Below are positions 14,727 through 31,182 of a stretch of 64,000 nucleotides of DNA, one piece after another. This DNA is from Planctomycetales bacterium 71-10 (lineage in GTDB: Bacteria > Planctomycetota > Planctomycetia > Isosphaerales > Isosphaeraceae), in assembly GCA_001898385.1 (NCBI GenBank), contig MKTT01000109.1:54903-118902 (forward strand), given 5' to 3'. How positions within the stretch are numbered: the stretch's first letter is position 1; each line of letters starts with the position of its first letter. The notes beneath the pieces are model-generated. The model was given only the letters and a program-made list of their open reading frames with translations, was not told the origin of the DNA and ran no database searches. The position numbers and the translations under genes were made by a program.

Positions 14727-14834
14727 ACCGATATCCCGGGGAGGAACCACCGATATCCCGGGGAGGAACCACCGATATCCCGGGGAGGAACCACCGATAT
14801 CCCGGGGAGGAACCACCGATATCCCGGGGAGGAA
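14727..14834 (+). repeat. Five tandem 22-bp direct repeats (iterons), unit ACCGATATCCCGGGGAGGAACC
   Basis: Units start at 14727, 14749, 14771, 14793 and 14815; contiguous, identical except the last unit's 3' end; immediately upstream of rep. Confidence 0.95.
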
Positions 14835-14858
14835 ATTTTCCGTAAGTCCTTGCAGGGA

Positions 14859-14936: not shown

Positions 14937-14954
14937 CTCTTGAAGGGCCCAGGA

Positions 14955-16421
14955 ATGGACGATTCTCGCGATCCGGACGGCCCTCGCACGACCCCCGACG
15001 GGACGCCGGACGAGCGTCTCCTCGGCAAGGACGAGATGAACCTGGCGGAGTTCCCGATCACGCTGCTGGCGGATCGGAAGGGGGTGTCGATCATCGTCCG
15101 CGAAGTCCCGACGCGCGACGAGCAGACGGGGAAGATGGTGCTGCGGAAGGTGACGGTGTCGGGGTCGGAGCTGTACGGGCTCCCCTCGGCGCAGGACAAC
15201 CTGATCCTGCTGGGGCTGATCTACTTGACCAAGAGGGCGAACAACTTCCGCGAGCGCCGGGTGGAGTTCAGCCGGAGCGAGATCATCAGGGTCCTGGGCT
15301 GGCCCGACTCCGGCCAGTCGTACACGCGGATCGAGCTGTCGCTGAAGCGCTGGGCCAACGTCTTCGTGCTGTATGAGAACGCCTGGTGGGAGAAGCCGCG
15401 GCAGACGTACTCGTCGAAGGGCTTCGGGATCATCGACGACTTCGAGATCCACGACGGTTCGGCGGTGCGTTCGTCGGGGGCCTTGAAGTCGAACATCGCG
15501 TGGAACGAGGTCTTCTTCCAGAGCCTGGAGGCGGGCTTCGTCCGGACGATCGACCTGAAGCTGCTGCTGCGGCTGAGATATCCCAGCTCGCAGCAGATGT
15601 ACCGATTCCTGGGCAAGCACTTCTACCACTCGCCGACGCTGACGCTGGACCTCCGGACGTTCGCCTGCGAGCACGTCGGCCTGGACCGGGGCTACAAGGA
15701 CAACGGCAAGCTCAAGGAGAAGCTCCAGCCGGCCATCGAGGAGCTGGAGGGGATCGGCTTCCTGGAGCCGATGAGCCGCGAGGATCGCTACGCCAAGGTC
15801 GGCCCCGGCCAGTGGACGATCACCCTCCGTCGTCGCGCCGACCTGGAACTGGCCGACGACCCGATCGACGCCGCCCCCCTGTCCGGCCCCGAGCCGACCG
15901 AGCAGGAGAAGGCGCTGATCGAGCGCGGTGTGACGCCCGCCACCGCGGCGGAGCTGGCCCTGGCCCACCCGGCCGACCGGATCGCGGCCAAGGTCGAGGT
16001 GTTCGACTGGCTCGTCGATCGCAAAGACCGGCGGGTCTCCAAGAACCCGGCCGGCTACCTCGCCGAATCGATCCGGAAGGACTACGCCCTCCCCCGCGGC
16101 TTCGAGTCCGAGGCCCACCGCCGCGAGCGGGCCGCCGCCTTGGAGGAGCAGCGCCGCAAGGTCGAGGAGGCGCGGCGCAAGGCCGCCGAGGAGCAGCGCG
16201 CGAGGGACGACGTCGACGCCGCCCGGGTCCGGGCCTACTGGGACGGACTCTCGGCCCCCGGCCGCGAGCGCCTGCAAGCCGAGGCCCTGGCCTCCCCCGC
16301 CCTCGCGTTCCTGGTCAAGCGCTATCGCGCCCAGAAGGACCCCGAGGCCGCCGCCCGCAGCCTCCGCACGATCCTCGACGGCTACATCCTGGAACTCCTG
16401 GATGCGAAGGCGTCGCGCTAA
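14955..16421 (+). CDS. Plasmid replication initiator protein, RPA/RepA-like family
   Basis: NLAEFPITLLADRKG, VTVSGSELYGLPSAQDNLILLGLIYLTKR, YPSSQQMYRFLGKHFYHSPTLTLDLRTFACEHVGL; iterons directly upstream. Confidence 0.85.
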   Translation: MDDSRDPDGPRTTPDGTPDERLLGKDEMNLAEFPITLLADRKGVSIIVREVPTRDEQTGKMVLRKVTVSGSELYGLPSAQDNLILLGLIYLTKRANNFRERRVEFSRSEIIRVLGWPDSGQSYTRIELSLKRWANVFVLYENAWWEKPRQTYSSKGFGIIDDFEIHDGSAVRSSGALKSNIAWNEVFFQSLEAGFVRTIDLKLLLRLRYPSSQQMYRFLGKHFYHSPTLTLDLRTFACEHVGLDRGYKDNGKLKEKLQPAIEELEGIGFLEPMSREDRYAKVGPGQWTITLRRRADLELADDPIDAAPLSGPEPTEQEKALIERGVTPATAAELALAHPADRIAAKVEVFDWLVDRKDRRVSKNPAGYLAESIRKDYALPRGFESEAHRRERAAALEEQRRKVEEARRKAAEEQRARDDVDAARVRAYWDGLSAPGRERLQAEALASPALAFLVKRYRAQKDPEAAARSLRTILDGYILELLDAKASR

Positions 16422-22948: not shown

Positions 22949-22963
22949 TATACCCCGCGTATA
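22949..22963. promoter_or_regulatory. Palindrome site 1 (TATACCCCGCGTATA), candidate parS-like
   Basis: 15-bp core repeated around parAB. Confidence 0.6.
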
Positions 22964-22993
22964 GGCCAGGACTCGATGAGCTGAGGGCCTCGA

Positions 22994-23317
22994 TCAGAAG
23001 AGATCCGAGTGCGTCCCGGTCCGGTGGAGGATCAGCTCGGTCGGCGTGACTTCATAGATCAAGATCCAGTCGGGCTCGACGTGGCAATCGCGGCAGCCCG
23101 ACCAGGGGCCCGTCAAGGCGTGGTCTCGCAGGGCCGCCGGCAGGGTTTGCCGCGCGACGAGAAGCCGCATGACGGCCGCGAACCGCCTCGGATCCCTGCC
23201 TCGCCGTAGTTGGCGTTCGAGATCCTTCCCGAACCGCGAGGTTTCCACCACGATGAGGAACGGTTGTGGTTCGGAAGGCTGGGGAGGGTTGGAATTCGGC
23301 GGTTTCTTCCGTGACAT
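22994..23317 (-). CDS. YafQ/RelE-family toxin
   Basis: FGKDLERQLRRGRD, LPAALRDHALTGPWSGCRDCHVEPDWILIYEVTPTELILHRTGTHSDLF. Confidence 0.87.
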   Translation of the reverse strand: MSRKKPPNSNPPQPSEPQPFLIVVETSRFGKDLERQLRRGRDPRRFAAVMRLLVARQTLPAALRDHALTGPWSGCRDCHVEPDWILIYEVTPTELILHRTGTHSDLF

Positions 23318-23323
23318 GATCGG

Positions 23324-23641
23324 CTACAGGCCGTGGGCCGCGAAGAAGTCGTCCAGGCTCTCATACCGGGTGAGATTCTTCCCCGCCCGCGCGTCTTCGA
23401 TCACCTTCCGCGTCTCCTCGTTGAAGTCGGGCTCGTCGGGGAGGGGACCAGACTTGTCGATGCGGAGCTTGGCCTTGGCCTGGGTCATCCGGACGAGTTG
23501 ATCGGCCAGGGTCTCGCCCTTCTTCGGGCGGCCGGGCTTGCGCATGGCGGCCAGCGACGCGACGACCTCGGCCGAAAGGCGGTCGAGGACGGCGTCGAGC
23601 AGGTCGTCGAGCGTCGGGATTTCCTGTCGCGCGGTAGCCAT
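23324..23641 (-). CDS. Cognate antitoxin of the YafQ-like toxin
   Basis: Small ORF 6 nt upstream of toxin, same strand; C-terminal RYESLDDFFAAHGL. Confidence 0.65.
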   Translation of the reverse strand: MATARQEIPTLDDLLDAVLDRLSAEVVASLAAMRKPGRPKKGETLADQLVRMTQAKAKLRIDKSGPLPDEPDFNEETRKVIEDARAGKNLTRYESLDDFFAAHGL

Positions 23642-23679
23642 AGGGGCATCTTATCCGAGGTCGTCCCGATCGTCGAGGG

Positions 23680-25299
23680 TCAGAACAGCAGTTGCAGCCG
23701 CGCCCAGTAGAGGTCGCTGTTGACGTAGAACCGGCCGGGTCCGAAGGTGACGGGGCGGCCGAACTCGGTGTGCTGCCAGTCGAGGTAGACCTTCAGGTAT
23801 TGATTCAAATACCAGTTGAATCCGATGTCCGTCACCTGGGCGTCGTTCGACCAGAGGTTGCGGTCGGCCAGGCCGGCGGTGAAGACCTCGTCCCCGACGC
23901 GGAGCGTGGCATAGCGGGCGGCCAGCTCGACGGCGCCCAGGCCGAAGTCCTCCCCTCGCTTCAGGTTGAACGGCCGCTTGACGTCGAACGGGCCGCGACG
24001 GGTGACGTTCTCGCCGGTCAGGAAGAACCCGGCCTGGACGTAGTAGGCGTCGACCGGGACGTCGACCCGCGCGAACGGCTGGGCGTTGGGCGTGGCGACA
24101 TAGTTGACGACGCCGCGGTCCCACTCGGCCAGCAGCGAGAGCCGCTTGTAGAACCAGGCGGCGTGGACCGATCCCATCGCCCGCATGCCGTTCTCGCGGA
24201 CTCCGTTGTTGAACGACAGGAAGGCCGGCGAGGCCGTCGACGCGCCCGACGCCAGCGAGGCGTTCACCGAGGTCCGCAGCGCCAGCGGGGCCTGCGTGTT
24301 GTTGCCCTGGTTGCCGACGTCCGTCGAGGCCCCCACGTTCAGGTAGTTGAGGAACGGGAACCGCTCCGAGTGCCGGAACGGGCGGGCGTTGAAGAAGCCC
24401 ACGAAGCTGGGCTCGTCGTTGAAGTCCTCGAAGCCGTTGCGGACGCCGTTGAAGATCCCCGCCGCGTAGTCGATCCGGTCGTCGGCCAGCAGGCCCCAGG
24501 CCATGGCCCCGATCTCGCGGAGGTTGCTGAAGTTCAGCGCGAAGACGGACCGCTCGGGCGAGATCAGGTCCATGTTCGCGACGGCGTAGAATTCATAAGT
24601 GTAGGGGACGCGGTAGCGGCCGACCTTGATCATCAGCCGGTCCTTCTCCAGGACCTTGAAGTTGACCAGGGCGTCGCGCAGCTCGAAGGCGCCGAGGCCG
24701 CGCTGGAACGAGGCCAGGTACTCGACGTTCCTCGTGAACCGGCCGTTGAAGGTCCAGATCTGGCGCGGGATGAAGAACCCGTTGTGGACGGTCCCCTGGC
24801 CGGTGTGGTCGAAGAGGCGGTAGTCGACCTGGGTCTCGTTGTGGAACTGGAGCTGATACTCATCGTCCTCGCTGGCCAGTTCGAAGCCCTGGCCGAGCCA
24901 CGCATTCAGGGGGATCCGCTTGCGGGCGCCGCGGGCGTTGAACGCGGCGGCCGTGGGGCCGACGCGGGCCGTCGGCGCGCCCGAAGCGCCGGCCGCCGCG
25001 GAGTCTCCGGCCGTCGAGGGGTTGGGGTTCGGCGTCGTCGCGGACGCCGCGCCGGCGGATGTCGTCCCGCCCGAGGCGTCGAGGGCGACGGCCTTCGATT
25101 CGGCCAGCTCCCGGACCTGCTCGCGGAGCGCGCGGTTCTCGTCCTCCAACGCCTTGAGGCGTTCTTCGAACCGCTGGAGGGCGTCGGCCGGCGGCGGTTC
25201 CTGGGGGCGGGCGACAGCCGGCATGGACAGGGACGCGAGGGCCAGGATCAGCCCTCGCGTCGGCCGGTTCGCCTTCTTCATGAGATGGGAGAGTCGCAT
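23680..25299 (-). CDS. Phosphate-selective porin O/P-like outer-membrane porin
   Basis: Signal peptide, coiled-coil ALEDENRALREQVREL, beta-barrel with RYATL, NWYLNQYLKVYLDWQHTEFG ending. Confidence 0.82.
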   Translation of the reverse strand: MRLSHLMKKANRPTRGLILALASLSMPAVARPQEPPPADALQRFEERLKALEDENRALREQVRELAESKAVALDASGGTTSAGAASATTPNPNPSTAGDSAAAGASGAPTARVGPTAAAFNARGARKRIPLNAWLGQGFELASEDDEYQLQFHNETQVDYRLFDHTGQGTVHNGFFIPRQIWTFNGRFTRNVEYLASFQRGLGAFELRDALVNFKVLEKDRLMIKVGRYRVPYTYEFYAVANMDLISPERSVFALNFSNLREIGAMAWGLLADDRIDYAAGIFNGVRNGFEDFNDEPSFVGFFNARPFRHSERFPFLNYLNVGASTDVGNQGNNTQAPLALRTSVNASLASGASTASPAFLSFNNGVRENGMRAMGSVHAAWFYKRLSLLAEWDRGVVNYVATPNAQPFARVDVPVDAYYVQAGFFLTGENVTRRGPFDVKRPFNLKRGEDFGLGAVELAARYATLRVGDEVFTAGLADRNLWSNDAQVTDIGFNWYLNQYLKVYLDWQHTEFGRPVTFGPGRFYVNSDLYWARLQLLF

Positions 25300-25321
25300 C
25301 GAGGATCCCGAGGGTCGTCGT

Positions 25322-26254
25322 TCAGGCGGCCTGTTCGGCGCGGGTTTCGAGCTGGGCGAGGGCGTCGCGGAGGGCGGCGACGAGCGTCGCGTCGTCGACC
25401 CCCTTCTTGCACTCGACCGTGACCTTGCACCCCGCGGCGCGGAGGGTGCGGACGGTCGGGAGCTTGGCCGCGGCCTTCGCCCCCCTCCCCTTGCCGACGG
25501 TCGACGGCGCGCGGCGGGCGGCGACCTTCACAGCCTCCACGGCCTCGGCGCGGCTGAGGCGCTCGGCGACGACCCGCTCGGCCAGCTCGCCCTGGATCGC
25601 GGGGTCCTGGACCTTGCCGATCTCGTAGGCGGTGGCCGGCGAGAGCGCCCCCTGCTCCACCTTCTCCTGGACGGGCTCGGGGAGGTCCAGCAGCGCGAGC
25701 GCACGGACGACGGTCGGCTGCGCGACGCCCAGGGCCTTCGCCGCCTGGTTGCCCGACCAGCCGTTGCGGTCCATCAGGGCGCGGAACGCCTTCGCCTGTT
25801 CGATCGGCTTCAGGTCTTCGCGCAGGCAGTTCTCGATGAGTTGCAGCGCCCGCAATTCCCCCTCGTCGACGGGGCCCTCGGAGACGACGCACGAGAGCGT
25901 CGCCAGGCCGGCGAGGCCGGCGGCGCGCCAGCGGCGCTCGCCGCAGACGACGACGTAGCGGTCGCGGGCCTCGTCCCAGCGGACGCGGATCGGCTGGAGT
26001 TGGCCGCGGGTCTTGAGCGACTCGGCCAGCCGGGCCAGCGCGTCGGGCTCGAACTCCTCGCGGGGCTGGTCGGGGTCGGGGACGATCTTGTCCACGGGCA
26101 CCTCGACGGCGTTCTTGCTCTTGGCGACCCCCTGCCATCGGCTGGGGACGGCGGACGTGCGGACCTCCCCCGCGGCCGGCCGCGACAGCCCCGCGCCCAT
26201 GCTCTCGGCGATGTTCGCCCCGCCGGCCTTCAGCAGCTCGTCCAGCTTCCCCAT
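25322..26254 (-). CDS. parB: Partition protein ParB
   Basis: VPVDKIVPDPDQPREEFEPDALARLAESLKTRGQLQPIRVR, GERRWRAA, ALQLIENCLREDLKPIEQAKAF. Confidence 0.93.
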   Translation of the reverse strand: MGKLDELLKAGGANIAESMGAGLSRPAAGEVRTSAVPSRWQGVAKSKNAVEVPVDKIVPDPDQPREEFEPDALARLAESLKTRGQLQPIRVRWDEARDRYVVVCGERRWRAAGLAGLATLSCVVSEGPVDEGELRALQLIENCLREDLKPIEQAKAFRALMDRNGWSGNQAAKALGVAQPTVVRALALLDLPEPVQEKVEQGALSPATAYEIGKVQDPAIQGELAERVVAERLSRAEAVEAVKVAARRAPSTVGKGRGAKAAAKLPTVRTLRAAGCKVTVECKKGVDDATLVAALRDALAQLETRAEQAA

Positions 26255-26255
26255 G

Positions 26256-27071
26256 TCAGGCGGCCTCCCCCGCGGCCGTCGGCTCGTCGGCCGCGGCCAG
26301 TCGCGCGAAGATCTCCTCCCCCAGCGCCTTCATCACCTTGGTCGCCGCCCCCCTGGGCTTGTACTGCGCGACCGGCTGGCGCTGGACGATCGCCTCCTTG
26401 AAGTCGGTGGAGATCGGGATCGTGGTCGTGAACACGGCGTCGCCGTAGTGCGTCCGCAGGAGTTGTTCGAACCCCTTGTGGACCGACAGGCGGGGGTTGG
26501 ACATCGTCACCAGGAACCCCAGCAGCCGCAGCGCGGGGTTGGGGCCGGAGACGACGCGGTCGATGGACTCCTGGACGTCGGCGATCCCCTGCGCCCCGAA
26601 GTCCTCGGGCTGGAGCGGGACGAGGAGCCCGTCGGAGGCGACGAGCGACGTCCACGACGCCAGGTGGAGGTTCGGCGGGCAGTCGATCAGGACGAGGTCG
26701 TACCCGCCGGAGACGTCCGCCAGGAAGTCCCGCAGCGAGGTCTGGAGCGGCCAGTCCGTCAGGTGGGGATCCGGGACGTTGAAGCTCCCCGCGGCTCGGC
26801 CGCCGCAGAGGAGGTCGACGCCGGGGACGTGCGTGCCCCGGATGACCTGCTCGGCCATCGCCTCCTGGTGGTAGACGGCGGCGATGGTCTCCGAGGGATC
26901 CAGGGCCCGCGTCGCCTGGGGCCCGAGGAACCCCTGAGTGAGGCTGGCCTGGGGGTCGTTGTCGACGAGCAGCACCCGCCTCCCCCCGAGGGCCAGCGCC
27001 CCTGCCAGGTGGTAGCAGGTGGAGGTCTTCCCGACCCCCCCCTTCTGGTTCAATGCCGTGACGACCGACAT
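26256..27071 (-). CDS. parA: Partition ATPase ParA
   Basis: MSVVTALNQKGGVGKTSTCYHLAGALALGGRRVLLVDNDPQASLTQGFLG; ATG at 27071. Confidence 0.95.
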   Translation of the reverse strand: MSVVTALNQKGGVGKTSTCYHLAGALALGGRRVLLVDNDPQASLTQGFLGPQATRALDPSETIAAVYHQEAMAEQVIRGTHVPGVDLLCGGRAAGSFNVPDPHLTDWPLQTSLRDFLADVSGGYDLVLIDCPPNLHLASWTSLVASDGLLVPLQPEDFGAQGIADVQESIDRVVSGPNPALRLLGFLVTMSNPRLSVHKGFEQLLRTHYGDAVFTTTIPISTDFKEAIVQRQPVAQYKPRGAATKVMKALGEEIFARLAAADEPTAAGEAA

Positions 27072-27122
27072 GCGTCCTCCTCCCCCGGAATGGTTTCCCG
27101 ACGGGTGAGGTATCGGACGGGT

Positions 27123-27137
27123 TATACCCCGCGTATA
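27123..27137. promoter_or_regulatory. Palindrome site 2 (TATACCCCGCGTATA; extended TTATAC-N5-GTATAA) upstream of parA
   Basis: Same core as sites 1 and 4. Confidence 0.65.
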
Positions 27138-27167
27138 AGCCTTTCCCCGGCGCATCCGGAAGCCCCC

Positions 27168-27182
27168 GATACGCGGGGTATA
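27168..27182. promoter_or_regulatory. Palindrome site 3 (GATACGCGGGGTATA, inverted orientation) upstream of parA
   Basis: 14/15 match to reverse complement of the core; 45 bp from site 2. Confidence 0.6.
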
Positions 27183-27637
27183 ATCCCCGGCCCGCGGGGC
27201 CTCAGGCGTTGGGTCCGTTCGCCGCCGTCGGGCCGTCGCGGGACGATGGTGTTCGGTGTCGCAAGTCGTTTGCGGATCGTCGATTGACGCCTGGACGAAG
27301 CGGCCGGGAAGTTGGCTTTGAACGTCGAAATCGATCAAGTTTTCGAGCGTCCCCGCCGACCGTCTCTGGTGCGTGGGCCTGGAATGGACCATGGGGCGAC
27401 GATCGCGCGGCGCGGCGGCCTCGGCGCAGGCGCGGACGACCGCCGACCAAGCGCCTGTTTCGCCGCCCCCGTTTGCGATCGTCCACCGTCCCATCTCAAG
27501 CCTCCGGGTCCCGCCGTGCTCCATTTCCGAGTACGATCGCCGGGACGAGATCGGGGATTTCAGGATTCCGCGGAATCTTGAGAGAGGGCTCGAGGTCGGC
27601 CCCTGCGCTGTGCCCGCTAGGCGGCCCGACGGCCGGT

Positions 27638-27652
27638 TATACCCCGCGTATA
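27638..27652. promoter_or_regulatory. Palindrome site 4 (TATACCCCGCGTATA)
   Basis: Identical core to sites 1 and 2. Confidence 0.6.
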
Positions 27653-27794
27653 GCCCACCGGGGCGACCAATCCAATCGACGCACCGACTGTCGACTTCAT
27701 CGGATTATGACAGATGTGGTAGGGTGGACCGGTACGTCGGTTCGCGGTGGAACGCGCCCCTACCTCGGGCCCGGGGCGTGAGGAGCCTACGGCC

Positions 27795-28766
27795 ATGCGA
27801 GAGACGTTCGCACGCGGATCGTGGAGGCTCCATCGGGGGCTCACCCTGGTCGAAGTCCTGGTGATCCTGGCGATCCTGGGGGTCTTGATCGGCATACTCT
27901 TGCCCGCGAGGCGGACCGCCGGAGAGGCGGCGCGGCGGGCCCAGTGCATGAACAACCTGAAGAACATCGCCCTCGCCGTTTCGAACTACGGGATGGCCCA
28001 CGGCGTCTTGCCGCCCGCTTCCACTGTGGATGTTGATGGACGTCCGCTGCATGGCTGGCGGACGCTGACCTTGCCCCACAACGAAGAGGATGTGCTGTAT
28101 AGCACGATCGACCTCGCGAAGCCCTGGGACGATCCGGCGAATGCCCGAGCCGGCGAGGAGCGCCTCTCGGTCTTCATCTGCCCGAACGCGACGACGCCCA
28201 GGAACGCGACGACTTATCTCGCGACCCTGGAGCCGGGCGGATGCCTGATCCCAGGAAAGTCCCGACGGCTCGCCGATGTGTCCGACGGGACGGCGAATAC
28301 CTTGTTGATCATCGAGGCCGGCGACGACCGGGCGGTCCCCTGGATGGCTCCGAGGGATGCGGACGAGTCCGTCCTGACGGGCTTCGCTTCGGCGAAGCTG
28401 CACCATTCGGGAGGGGCCCACGCCGCGTTCCTGGTCCGCGAGGGGCGGGAGGTCGTCCGGGATCCCGAGGAGCCCTATCCTCGAACCGCCCTCGGGCTGG
28501 ACAGGAGCCGGGATCGCCTCTGGCTGGTCGTCGTGGACGGCAAGCAACCGCGATACAGCGAGGGGATGACCCTCCGCGAACTGGCCCGGTTCCTCGTCCA
28601 GATCGGGGTCGAGGACGCCATCCAGCTCGACGGCGGCGGCTCCGCGACGATGGTCGCGCGCGATGGGGCTGGCGATGCGATCCTCCTCAACCGACCCTGC
28701 CACACGAAGGTCCCCGGCAGGCAACGGCCGGTCGCGAACTTCCTGGGGGTGATCTTCCCGAAATGA
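27795..28766 (+). CDS. DUF1559 pseudopilin-like N-terminus fused to C-terminal half of a phosphodiester glycosidase (NAGPA) domain
   Basis: RGLTLVEVLVILAILGVLIGILLPA...MNNLKNIALAVSNYGMAHGVLPPA then YPRTALGLDRSRDRLWLVVVDGKQPRYSEGMTLRELARFL..EDAIQLDGGGSATMVARDG..LLNRP...RPVANFLGVIF. Confidence 0.85.
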   Translation: MRETFARGSWRLHRGLTLVEVLVILAILGVLIGILLPARRTAGEAARRAQCMNNLKNIALAVSNYGMAHGVLPPASTVDVDGRPLHGWRTLTLPHNEEDVLYSTIDLAKPWDDPANARAGEERLSVFICPNATTPRNATTYLATLEPGGCLIPGKSRRLADVSDGTANTLLIIEAGDDRAVPWMAPRDADESVLTGFASAKLHHSGGAHAAFLVREGREVVRDPEEPYPRTALGLDRSRDRLWLVVVDGKQPRYSEGMTLRELARFLVQIGVEDAIQLDGGGSATMVARDGAGDAILLNRPCHTKVPGRQRPVANFLGVIFPK

Positions 28767-28817
28767 CGCCCGCGCGTTCGGCCCGGGACCGTCGGGGTCG
28801 ATCAAGGGGAGGGGGCC

Positions 28818-29099
28818 GTGCGGGCCTTCATGCGCGCGACCGCCTCGTCGCAGAGGACGCGGAAGATCCGGTACGCGGGGCGAGGCGTTGCGAAGGGCAA
28901 GAGCGGGGCGAACCGAGTTTGCTATGTCCTCTACCCCGAGTTCGGGACCGTAGCTCTGGTGGCTGTCTTCGGCAAGAATGAGAAAGCCGATCTGAGCGCC
29001 GTGGATCGACGCGCCGTCGCGAAGATGGTCGATGCGTTCCGCGACGAGTTGAGGGATGTGGCGAGTCGAGGGCGCGGGAGGGGACCGAACGATGGGTAA
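28818..29099 (+). CDS. RelE/HigB-type toxin, apparently N-terminally shortened
   Basis: RKIRYAGRGVAKGKSGANRVCYVLYPEFGTVALVAVFGKNEKADLSAVDRRAV. Confidence 0.7.
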   Translation: MRAFMRATASSQRTRKIRYAGRGVAKGKSGANRVCYVLYPEFGTVALVAVFGKNEKADLSAVDRRAVAKMVDAFRDELRDVASRGRGRGPNDG

Positions 29100-29478
29100 G
29101 ATGCTTGACGGTCGGTCCCGAGGACGCGGAGGAAATCGGTCGCTCACGGCCGCAGGCTCGAAGATCGTCGCGGCCTTTGAGGAGGCGATCGAGGTCGTCC
29201 GCGCGGAGGGCGAAGGGCCCAGGCTGACGGCGCGGACCTACCCGCTGGCGTTCGCGCTCGTCGACTACGGCCCGGGGGACGTGCGGCGCGTCCGCGACCT
29301 GCTTGATATGAGCCAGGTCGTCTTCGCCCGCTTCCTGGGGGTCGGCCCGAATACCGTCCGCTCCTGGGAGCAGGGGACGCGACCCCCAAGCCCCATCGCC
29401 CGCCGATTCATGGTCGAGATCGAGGCCGATCCCGACTACTGGCGTCGACGCACGGCCTCCCCTATACGCGGCGTATAA
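29092..29478 (+). CDS. XRE-family HTH antitoxin (HigA-like)
   Basis: RDLLDMSQVVFARFLGVGPNTVRSWEQGTRPPSPIARRFM; ATG overlaps toxin stop by 8 nt. Confidence 0.82.
   Translation: MGKMLDGRSRGRGGNRSLTAAGSKIVAAFEEAIEVVRAEGEGPRLTARTYPLAFALVDYGPGDVRRVRDLLDMSQVVFARFLGVGPNTVRSWEQGTRPPSPIARRFMVEIEADPDYWRRRTASPIRGV
29463..29477. promoter_or_regulatory. Palindrome site 5 (TATACGC-G-GCGTATA), perfect 7-1-7 palindrome overlapping the antitoxin stop codon
   Basis: One mismatch to reverse complement of the core. Confidence 0.55.
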
Positions 29479-29484
29479 CCCCCG

Positions 29485-31182
29485 TCAGGGGACGTTGCGG
29501 CCGAGCTTCAGCAGCAGGCGTTCGACGCGATAGACGACCTCGACGTCCTTGTCGCGGAGGGCTTCCTCCAGCGCGGGGACGGCGGCGGGGCCGAGGGATT
29601 GGAGGCGGGATTCGGCCTCCTCGCGGGCCTTCCACGAGTCGTCGCCGAGCTGCCGCACCAGGGCCTTCGCGCGGTCTTGCAGGCGCGGGTCGACGCCGCG
29701 GACGACGACCAGGGCGACGCGCGTGAACTTCTTCGGCGTCGGGAAGACGTCGAGCGGGACGGCCTCGTCGATCGCCTCGCGCGAGAGATGGGCGACGACG
29801 ATCAGTTCGCCAGGCTCGAACAGGTCCTTCGCGTAGGCGTCGAGGATCGTCGCGACGACGTCCTTGCGGACGCCCCGTCCTTCGAGCCGGCGGGCGAGGG
29901 CGTCGCGGGTGAACTCGCGGTAGGATGGGTCGGCCGCCTTCAGGGGCTGCGACATGCCGACCTTCACCGGCGGGCCCTCGATCGGCCCCCCCTTCTTCTC
30001 CGAGGCGGCGGCCAGGCGGGCGGCGGTGGTGATGTAGAGCCGGCCCTCGTCGGTGACGCGGTAGCTCAGGTTCACGGGGCCGAGGAGGTCGGCCAGGGCG
30101 TCGCGCGCGGGGACCTCGGCCGCCTTCAGGCTCGTCGGCTTGGCGAGGTCCACCTTCTCCTTCGCCAGCGTCTTGTCGTCGAACTCCAGCCGCAGCCGCG
30201 CCTGCGAGGCGGCCATCCCCAGGAGGTCGCGCCGGGGGGCCGACTCGACGGCCGCCGTGACGCGACGGTTCAGGAACTGGTCGACGCGAGCCTTCATGTC
30301 GGCGTCCCCCTCGGCGGGGAGCGGGGGGGGCTCGTCGTCGGCCTTCTTCTCCTCGGGCTTCTCGGCGTCGGCGAAGACGGCGTCGGCCTGCTTCGCCGGA
30401 TCCGGCTTCGCGGCTTCGGCCTTCTTGGCCTCGGCCTCCTTCTTCGCGGCCTCGGACTTCTCGGCGTCCGCGTCGGCGGCGGCGGACGGCAGCTCGTCGA
30501 GCCAGCCGACGCGCAGGCCGGCGTCGGCCGGGGCGACGACGGCGACGTCGATGAGGCGACGGTTCGTCATATTCTGGATCGTATATTCGTCCGGGCCGCC
30601 GCGGACGCGCACCGGGGAGGGGAGGGCGGGCTCGGCGTCGTAGGCGAGGAAGCGTTCGAAGCGGGTCTCGTTCTTGAGGTAGAGCGCCCCGGGCGCGGCG
30701 CGGAGCTTGCCGAGCAGGCCGCCGTCGTCGGGGAGGTAGCTGGGGGGGATGTCGGCGGGGGGCTCCGCCAGCAGGTCGGAGCCGAACCAGCGGACGCGGC
30801 CGGCGTGCTCCTTGCCGGCCGGCCAGTGGGCGAGGAAGCTCCCGGACTTGATCTTGAGGTCGACGTCGACGTCGCGGCAGGGGTCGCCGAAGAACTGGAC
30901 GAACGAGATCGGGGCGATCGGGAAGAGGCCGTCGGCCTCCTTCCCCTCGCGCCGCGGGCGGCTCGTGCCGACGACGCCCGGCATCGCGTTGCGGTAGACC
31001 TTGGCCGTGTTGAGCGTGGTCTGCGCGGGGTCGGCGACCCAGACCGAGACGTCGCTCACCTCGACCGGGATCTGCGCCGCCTCGTCGCGGGGCCGCGCCG
31101 GCGGCTCTTCGGCGACGGCCGCGGCCAGGACGAGCGCGAGGGCGACGAACGTCCCCAGGGGGCGGATCGGGCGGCGGGTCAT
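29485..31182 (-). CDS. Secreted hypothetical protein with C-terminal HEAT-like repeats
   Basis: Signal peptide; DRAKALVRQLGDDSWKAREEAESRLQSLGPAAVPALEEALRDKDVEVVYRVERLLLKLG. Confidence 0.75.
   Translation of the reverse strand: MTRRPIRPLGTFVALALVLAAAVAEEPPARPRDEAAQIPVEVSDVSVWVADPAQTTLNTAKVYRNAMPGVVGTSRPRREGKEADGLFPIAPISFVQFFGDPCRDVDVDLKIKSGSFLAHWPAGKEHAGRVRWFGSDLLAEPPADIPPSYLPDDGGLLGKLRAAPGALYLKNETRFERFLAYDAEPALPSPVRVRGGPDEYTIQNMTNRRLIDVAVVAPADAGLRVGWLDELPSAAADADAEKSEAAKKEAEAKKAEAAKPDPAKQADAVFADAEKPEEKKADDEPPPLPAEGDADMKARVDQFLNRRVTAAVESAPRRDLLGMAASQARLRLEFDDKTLAKEKVDLAKPTSLKAAEVPARDALADLLGPVNLSYRVTDEGRLYITTAARLAAASEKKGGPIEGPPVKVGMSQPLKAADPSYREFTRDALARRLEGRGVRKDVVATILDAYAKDLFEPGELIVVAHLSREAIDEAVPLDVFPTPKKFTRVALVVVRGVDPRLQDRAKALVRQLGDDSWKAREEAESRLQSLGPAAVPALEEALRDKDVEVVYRVERLLLKLGRNVP

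Follow-up and report, generated by a model that had tools for sequence, protein, structure and literature searches.

Candidate parS centromeres of a planctomycete plasmid: a family of 15-bp odd palindromes around parAB

What recognizes the short palindromes scattered around the parAB gene pair of this planctomycete replicon, and do they act as its centromere? The window analyzed here is a 64-kb stretch, bases 54903–118902 of the 186,989-bp contig C109, from a genome of 7.73 Mb. An earlier reading of these letters had listed five palindrome copies, and all five are found where it placed them (Table 1). Palindromes 1, 2, 4 and 5 match TATACNNNNNGTATA exactly in a pattern scan, against 0.00 matches expected in shuffled sequence, and at up to three mismatches the window holds five matches against 0.19 expected. 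Such numbers lie well outside chance, and the family is genuine. The earlier note had seen no other copy in the rest of the window, and this absence extends to the whole genome: the exact form is limited to the same four places, and the refined pattern TATACSCNGSGTATA at up to one mismatch recovers the five window sites and none besides. At two mismatches, TATACSCNGSGTATA matches five places on other contigs, which is background level for the whole genome. No genomic copy is farther than about 2.4 kb from the parAB pair, and the five together span 6.5 kb. The note had put two of them upstream of parA; there are three (palindromes 2, 3 and 4, with the parA start at 27071).

The consensus offered in the earlier note holds as a palindrome, but not in its outer T/A pair, both bases of which are present at palindrome 2 alone among the five sites. 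Because this outer pair is unconserved, the informative unit is the 15-mer TATACSC-S-GSGTATA. A symmetrised motif built from 22 sites reads T-A-T-A-C-S-C around the central base and allows either C or G at position -2; conservation is limited to these 15 bp.

Table 1 Features of the partition and replication regions in the window (window coordinates).
Feature	Position	Strand	Description
22-bp direct repeats, about five	14727..14836	+	ACCGATATCCCGGGGAGGAACC; immediately upstream of rep
rep, replication initiator protein A (PF10134)	14940..16421	+	homologous gene annotated replication initiator on pPL62-3
parS-like palindrome 1	22949..22963	.	TATACCCCGCGTATA; gap between Imm10-like gene and convergent YafQ-type toxin gene
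parB	25322..26254	-	310 aa; ParB_N E 3.9e-23, HTH_ParB E 1.4e-18; recognition helix from Q179
parA	26256..27071	-	271 aa; Walker-type ATPase, AAA_31 E 2.5e-33; without N-terminal HTH domain
parS-like palindrome 2	27123..27137	.	TATACCCCGCGTATA; parA start 52 bp downstream; site and flank kept in four other species
parS-like palindrome 3	27168..27182	.	GATACGCGGGGTATA; degenerate, single arm base altered
parS-like palindrome 4	27638..27652	.	TATACCCCGCGTATA; parA upstream side
parS-like palindrome 5	29463..29477	.	TATACGCGGCGTATA; overlaps last codons of small HTH ORF 29056-29478

The parA and parB genes are adjacent, the gene-pair arrangement of a ParABS system, and the parA start codon is backed by conserved upstream sequence in orthologs. 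ParB is homologous to solved CTP-binding ParBs; it carries the CTP-binding motif GERRWRA at residues 105–111, and ENCLREDL is also present in the sequence. Pfam reports ParB_N and HTH_ParB and nothing else, while the best NCBIfam model by score is TIGR04285 (Noc), well under its cut-off. Two toxin-antitoxin-like pairs are encoded nearby. One, at 22994–23641, combines a YafQ-type toxin with an unclassified partner (an antitoxin-like protein, 23324–23641), and the other, at 28818–29478, consists of a short ORF followed by an HTH protein (29056–29478) that resembles NadS/MqsA antitoxins.

We also followed the motif into other genomes. Four further genomes of the genus hold 4, 7, 3 and 1 copies at up to one mismatch, all at parAB or its remnant, so that the genome-wide dispersion that the earlier note had named as refuting its reading is seen neither there nor in the window's own genome. 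The genome with seven copies has them on pPL62-3 (NZ_CP011276), a sister plasmid from Planctomyces sp. SH-PL62 that is complete and circular at 81,115 bp, and all seven lie between annotated genes. DNA between the outer sites is mostly unconserved between plasmids, yet each plasmid has several copies; because most copies sit in such unconserved DNA, the palindromes have been kept or remade independently of their surroundings. Two site positions look orthologous. The first, 50–70 bp before parA and flanked by GGGAAAGGCTTATAC, is the most position-conserved copy; the second lies 8 bp from the conserved gene 29485–31182 (palindrome 5 in the window) and has its pPL62-3 counterpart at 15297. The palindrome co-travels with orthologous parAB. 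At one locus of a congeneric species (L105 of genome G031; contig C68, 9640–10294), parA through parB codon 128 is missing and the pre-parA palindrome is joined to the parB remnant; this copy, which preceded the former parA, is the only one left in that genome.

These comparisons bear on the possibility that the palindromes are operators of some other regulator, for example the small HTH protein 29056–29478 or the antitoxin-like protein 23324–23641. Two copies do lie directly beside toxin-antitoxin genes, and HTH antitoxins recognize palindromic DNA. On pPL62-3, however, the annotated site neighbours are not toxin-antitoxin genes, yet that plasmid has the highest copy number of the motif, and position is best conserved for the copy preceding parA. 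Palindrome identity moreover tracks ParB over dozens of loci, as detailed below, and we regard this explanation as very unlikely.

The replicon itself is best read as a plasmid. C109 aligns with pPL62-3 over about 37 kb, and both carry parAB and rep. An RPA-type rep gene on C109, together with this sharing with a circular plasmid, makes the locus a plasmid par locus; no overlap between the contig ends of C109 was found. The 22-bp repeats immediately upstream of rep are likely replication iterons marking the plasmid's replication origin. Given that initiators bind repeated sites and that an RPA-type rep gene is present, the palindromes might themselves be initiator sites, either iterons or incompatibility sites of the origin. 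We consider this even less probable than the operator reading: rep and its own direct repeats occupy 14.7–16.4 kb, at least 6.5 kb from the nearest palindrome, and on pPL62-3 the distance to rep exceeds 20 kb. Iterons are direct repeats adjoining the initiator gene, which the palindromes are not, and the 22-bp repeats are unlike them in both sequence and form.

A broader survey covered ParB relatives gathered from the family (45 genomes) and the class (398 genomes), with up to 20 kb read around most of them. About 90 parB-relative loci were scanned, without a preset motif, for palindromes that recur within 4 kb of parB; the motif of each locus was mostly the best-scoring 15-mer, with a few weaker loci kept by hand. 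At E<1e-5, a 15-bp palindrome family was found at 21 of 40 first-round parB loci versus 2 of 84 control windows taken from the contigs of these loci, and both positive controls are low-complexity CGG repeats inside a CGG-rich gene. Even palindrome lengths of 14 and 16 were not enriched at the first-round loci relative to controls. The common build is a pair of 7-base arms, with clade-specific outer bases, on either side of a single central base that in Isosphaeraceae is usually C or G. Examples of arms include GTTTCCC, GATCACC, GTTACGC, CTTACAC, CATGCAC, CCTGCAC, GGTGTAC and GTTGCGC, as well as ATTGCCA from other families. Next to paralogous plasmid ParBs, the equivalent position is taken by palindromes specific to those ParBs, and across dozens of loci the identity of the palindrome follows the ParB. 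The plasmid-like contig C153 of the window's own genome is one such case, with its own ParB and the palindrome GTTTCCCSGGGAAAC, whose six exact copies are all on C153. Many more distant parB loci had no significant palindrome family, partly because their contigs are short, and chromosomal ParB loci lacked a family or had instead an even site resembling the canonical one (the G011 chromosome, GGTTTCACGTGAAACG; G028). A role as pdif-like recombination sites bounding exchangeable gene modules would suit some copies that border the variable segment ahead of parA, but is as improbable as the initiator reading, since only 15 bp are conserved without a flanking core (dif-type sites are longer, at about 28 bp), copies also cluster inside single gaps and the sequence differs by ParB clade.

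In Tautonia sociabilis (L031, 12702–14471), a plasmid-type parB has not only a 15-bp odd palindrome family but also, 2–4 kb downstream, a dozen copies of the inverted repeat TGCCGGTATGCCGGCA. On very large contigs of two genomes (G028 C1:35905–36579 and G208 C1:630101–630973), ParB-like genes are interrupted by an internal TGA and may be plasmid insertions that have decayed within chromosomes. Avoidance of a shared parS between co-resident plasmids found no statistical support: the outer five bases were shared by 2 of 23 within-genome pairs versus 56 of 880 between-genome pairs, with none of the sampled pairs in Isosphaeraceae sharing them. A 2017 paper proposed that the plasmids of Paludisphaera borealis share one ParA and one ParB split over two plasmids (PMC5352709); replicon-specific palindromes suggest that this proposal merits re-checking.

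The bases of the palindrome arms vary with ParB helix-turn-helix residues. In an alignment of the ParBs, every residue between positions 50 and 245 was compared with each arm base. Within the family, a set of 21 Isosphaeraceae ParBs with <70% mutual identity placed residue 179 against arm base -6 at the top of 770 residue-by-position pairs (permutation p about 2e-5) and residue 169 against arm base -7 second (p about 7e-5), both permutations ignoring phylogeny. Because a few weaker loci had been kept by hand, the test was repeated on E<1e-3 loci only. Here, 21 diverged ParBs from across the class paired Q179 with A at -6 in 7/7, P with T in 4/4, H with G in 3/3 and K with T in 4/4 cases (p about 5e-5, phylogeny ignored), and R at residue 207 went with C at -2 in 4/4. 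An independent-pairs test on a tree built without the HTH afforded just 1–4 usable pairs per trait, too few for statistical power, zero of them contradicting.

Alignment to solved ParBs equates residue 179 with Caulobacter R173 and residue 207 with G201, two of the four positions that set ParB/Noc specificity (PMC7383237). Measured contacts in ParB and Noc are R173–G1, Q173–A1 and R201–C6 (PMC7383237), and the residue-to-base chemistry agrees with these contacts. Residue 179 pairs with arm base -6, not with -7 as an overlay on canonical parS position 1 predicts; this one-base inward register may reflect the extra central base. An AlphaFold model (mean pLDDT 75), which served only to place residues 169 and 179, puts them at the starts of two HTH helices. 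Taken further, planctomycete plasmids could represent a large natural ParB–parS set on one scaffold, the 15-bp odd palindrome with one central base, whose specificities diverge readably, HTH residues 179/169/184/207 setting arm bases -6/-7/-3/-2, such that co-resident plasmids need not share centromeres. We give this generalization about an even chance of being right.

The five palindromes themselves are, with high probability, parS (centromere) nucleation sites of a plasmid ParABS partition system. The earlier suggestion that they are ParB sites gains support from a palindrome that travels with orthologous parAB, from paralogous ParBs with palindromes of their own and from bases that covary with recognition residues, all of which are comparative lines of evidence. 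By analogy with the ParB/ParA family, ParB would bind TATACSC-S-GSGTATA as a dimer, with one HTH per arm and TATACSCSGSGTATA as its predicted target, then load as a CTP-dependent clamp and spread on flanking DNA. ParA would move the resulting ParB–DNA complexes over the nucleoid, leaving a plasmid in each daughter cell. Palindrome 2, located 52 bp upstream of parA, may double as a par operator through which ParB would repress its own operon.

While this class of system is known, the parS sequence set and the residue-to-base pattern appear to be undescribed in open-licence papers, and the distribution elements of these plasmids were described as unidentified in 2025 (PMC12603096). Candidate centromeres are now supplied for many planctomycete plasmids. 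One ParB/Noc switch in specificity has already been analyzed experimentally (PMC7383237); the ParB–parS pairs collected here are natural material for testing how ParB specificity diversifies. ParB–parS systems are already used for DNA-locus imaging (PMC11798528), for which the planctomycete set may yield orthogonal pairs.

Chromosomal-type ParABS systems with the 16-bp parS (TGTTTCACGTGAAACA) likewise combine a ParA ATPase with a ParB that has a ParB_N CTP-binding motif and HTH_ParB, and likewise have several short palindromes within kilobases of parAB. The window sites differ from this parS in their odd length of 15 bp, in having a central base and in the sequence of their arms. As the earlier note had observed, canonical parS is absent: at up to two mismatches, no match to TGTTTCACGTGAAACA occurs on C109, and one two-mismatch match occurs on contig C99. 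With Noc and its NBS site, the planctomycete ParBs share the recurring Q173–A and R201–C logic (PMC7383237), whereas the window ParB is paired with parA on a plasmid and its site differs in sequence and spacing. Earlier examples of an odd 15-bp site are the KorB operator and parS2, and on that account the kind of system is known. The KorB operator OB of plasmid RK2, TTTTAGCGGCTAAAA (TTTTAGC-G-GCTAAAA; PMC11790492), is built in the same way, as a 15-bp odd palindrome whose central G has C on one side and G on the other. As a global repressor, KorB has operators dispersed over its plasmid, whereas the window sites are confined to par, and no KorB-specific Pfam domain was reported for the window ParB. 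In chromosome II of Vibrio cholerae, the parS2 sites are 15-bp inverted repeats read by their own ParB2 (PMC3688505). Although their AT-rich arms are unrelated in sequence to the window sites, this chromosome is likewise a plasmid-derived replicon that pairs 15-bp repeats with a ParB of its own.
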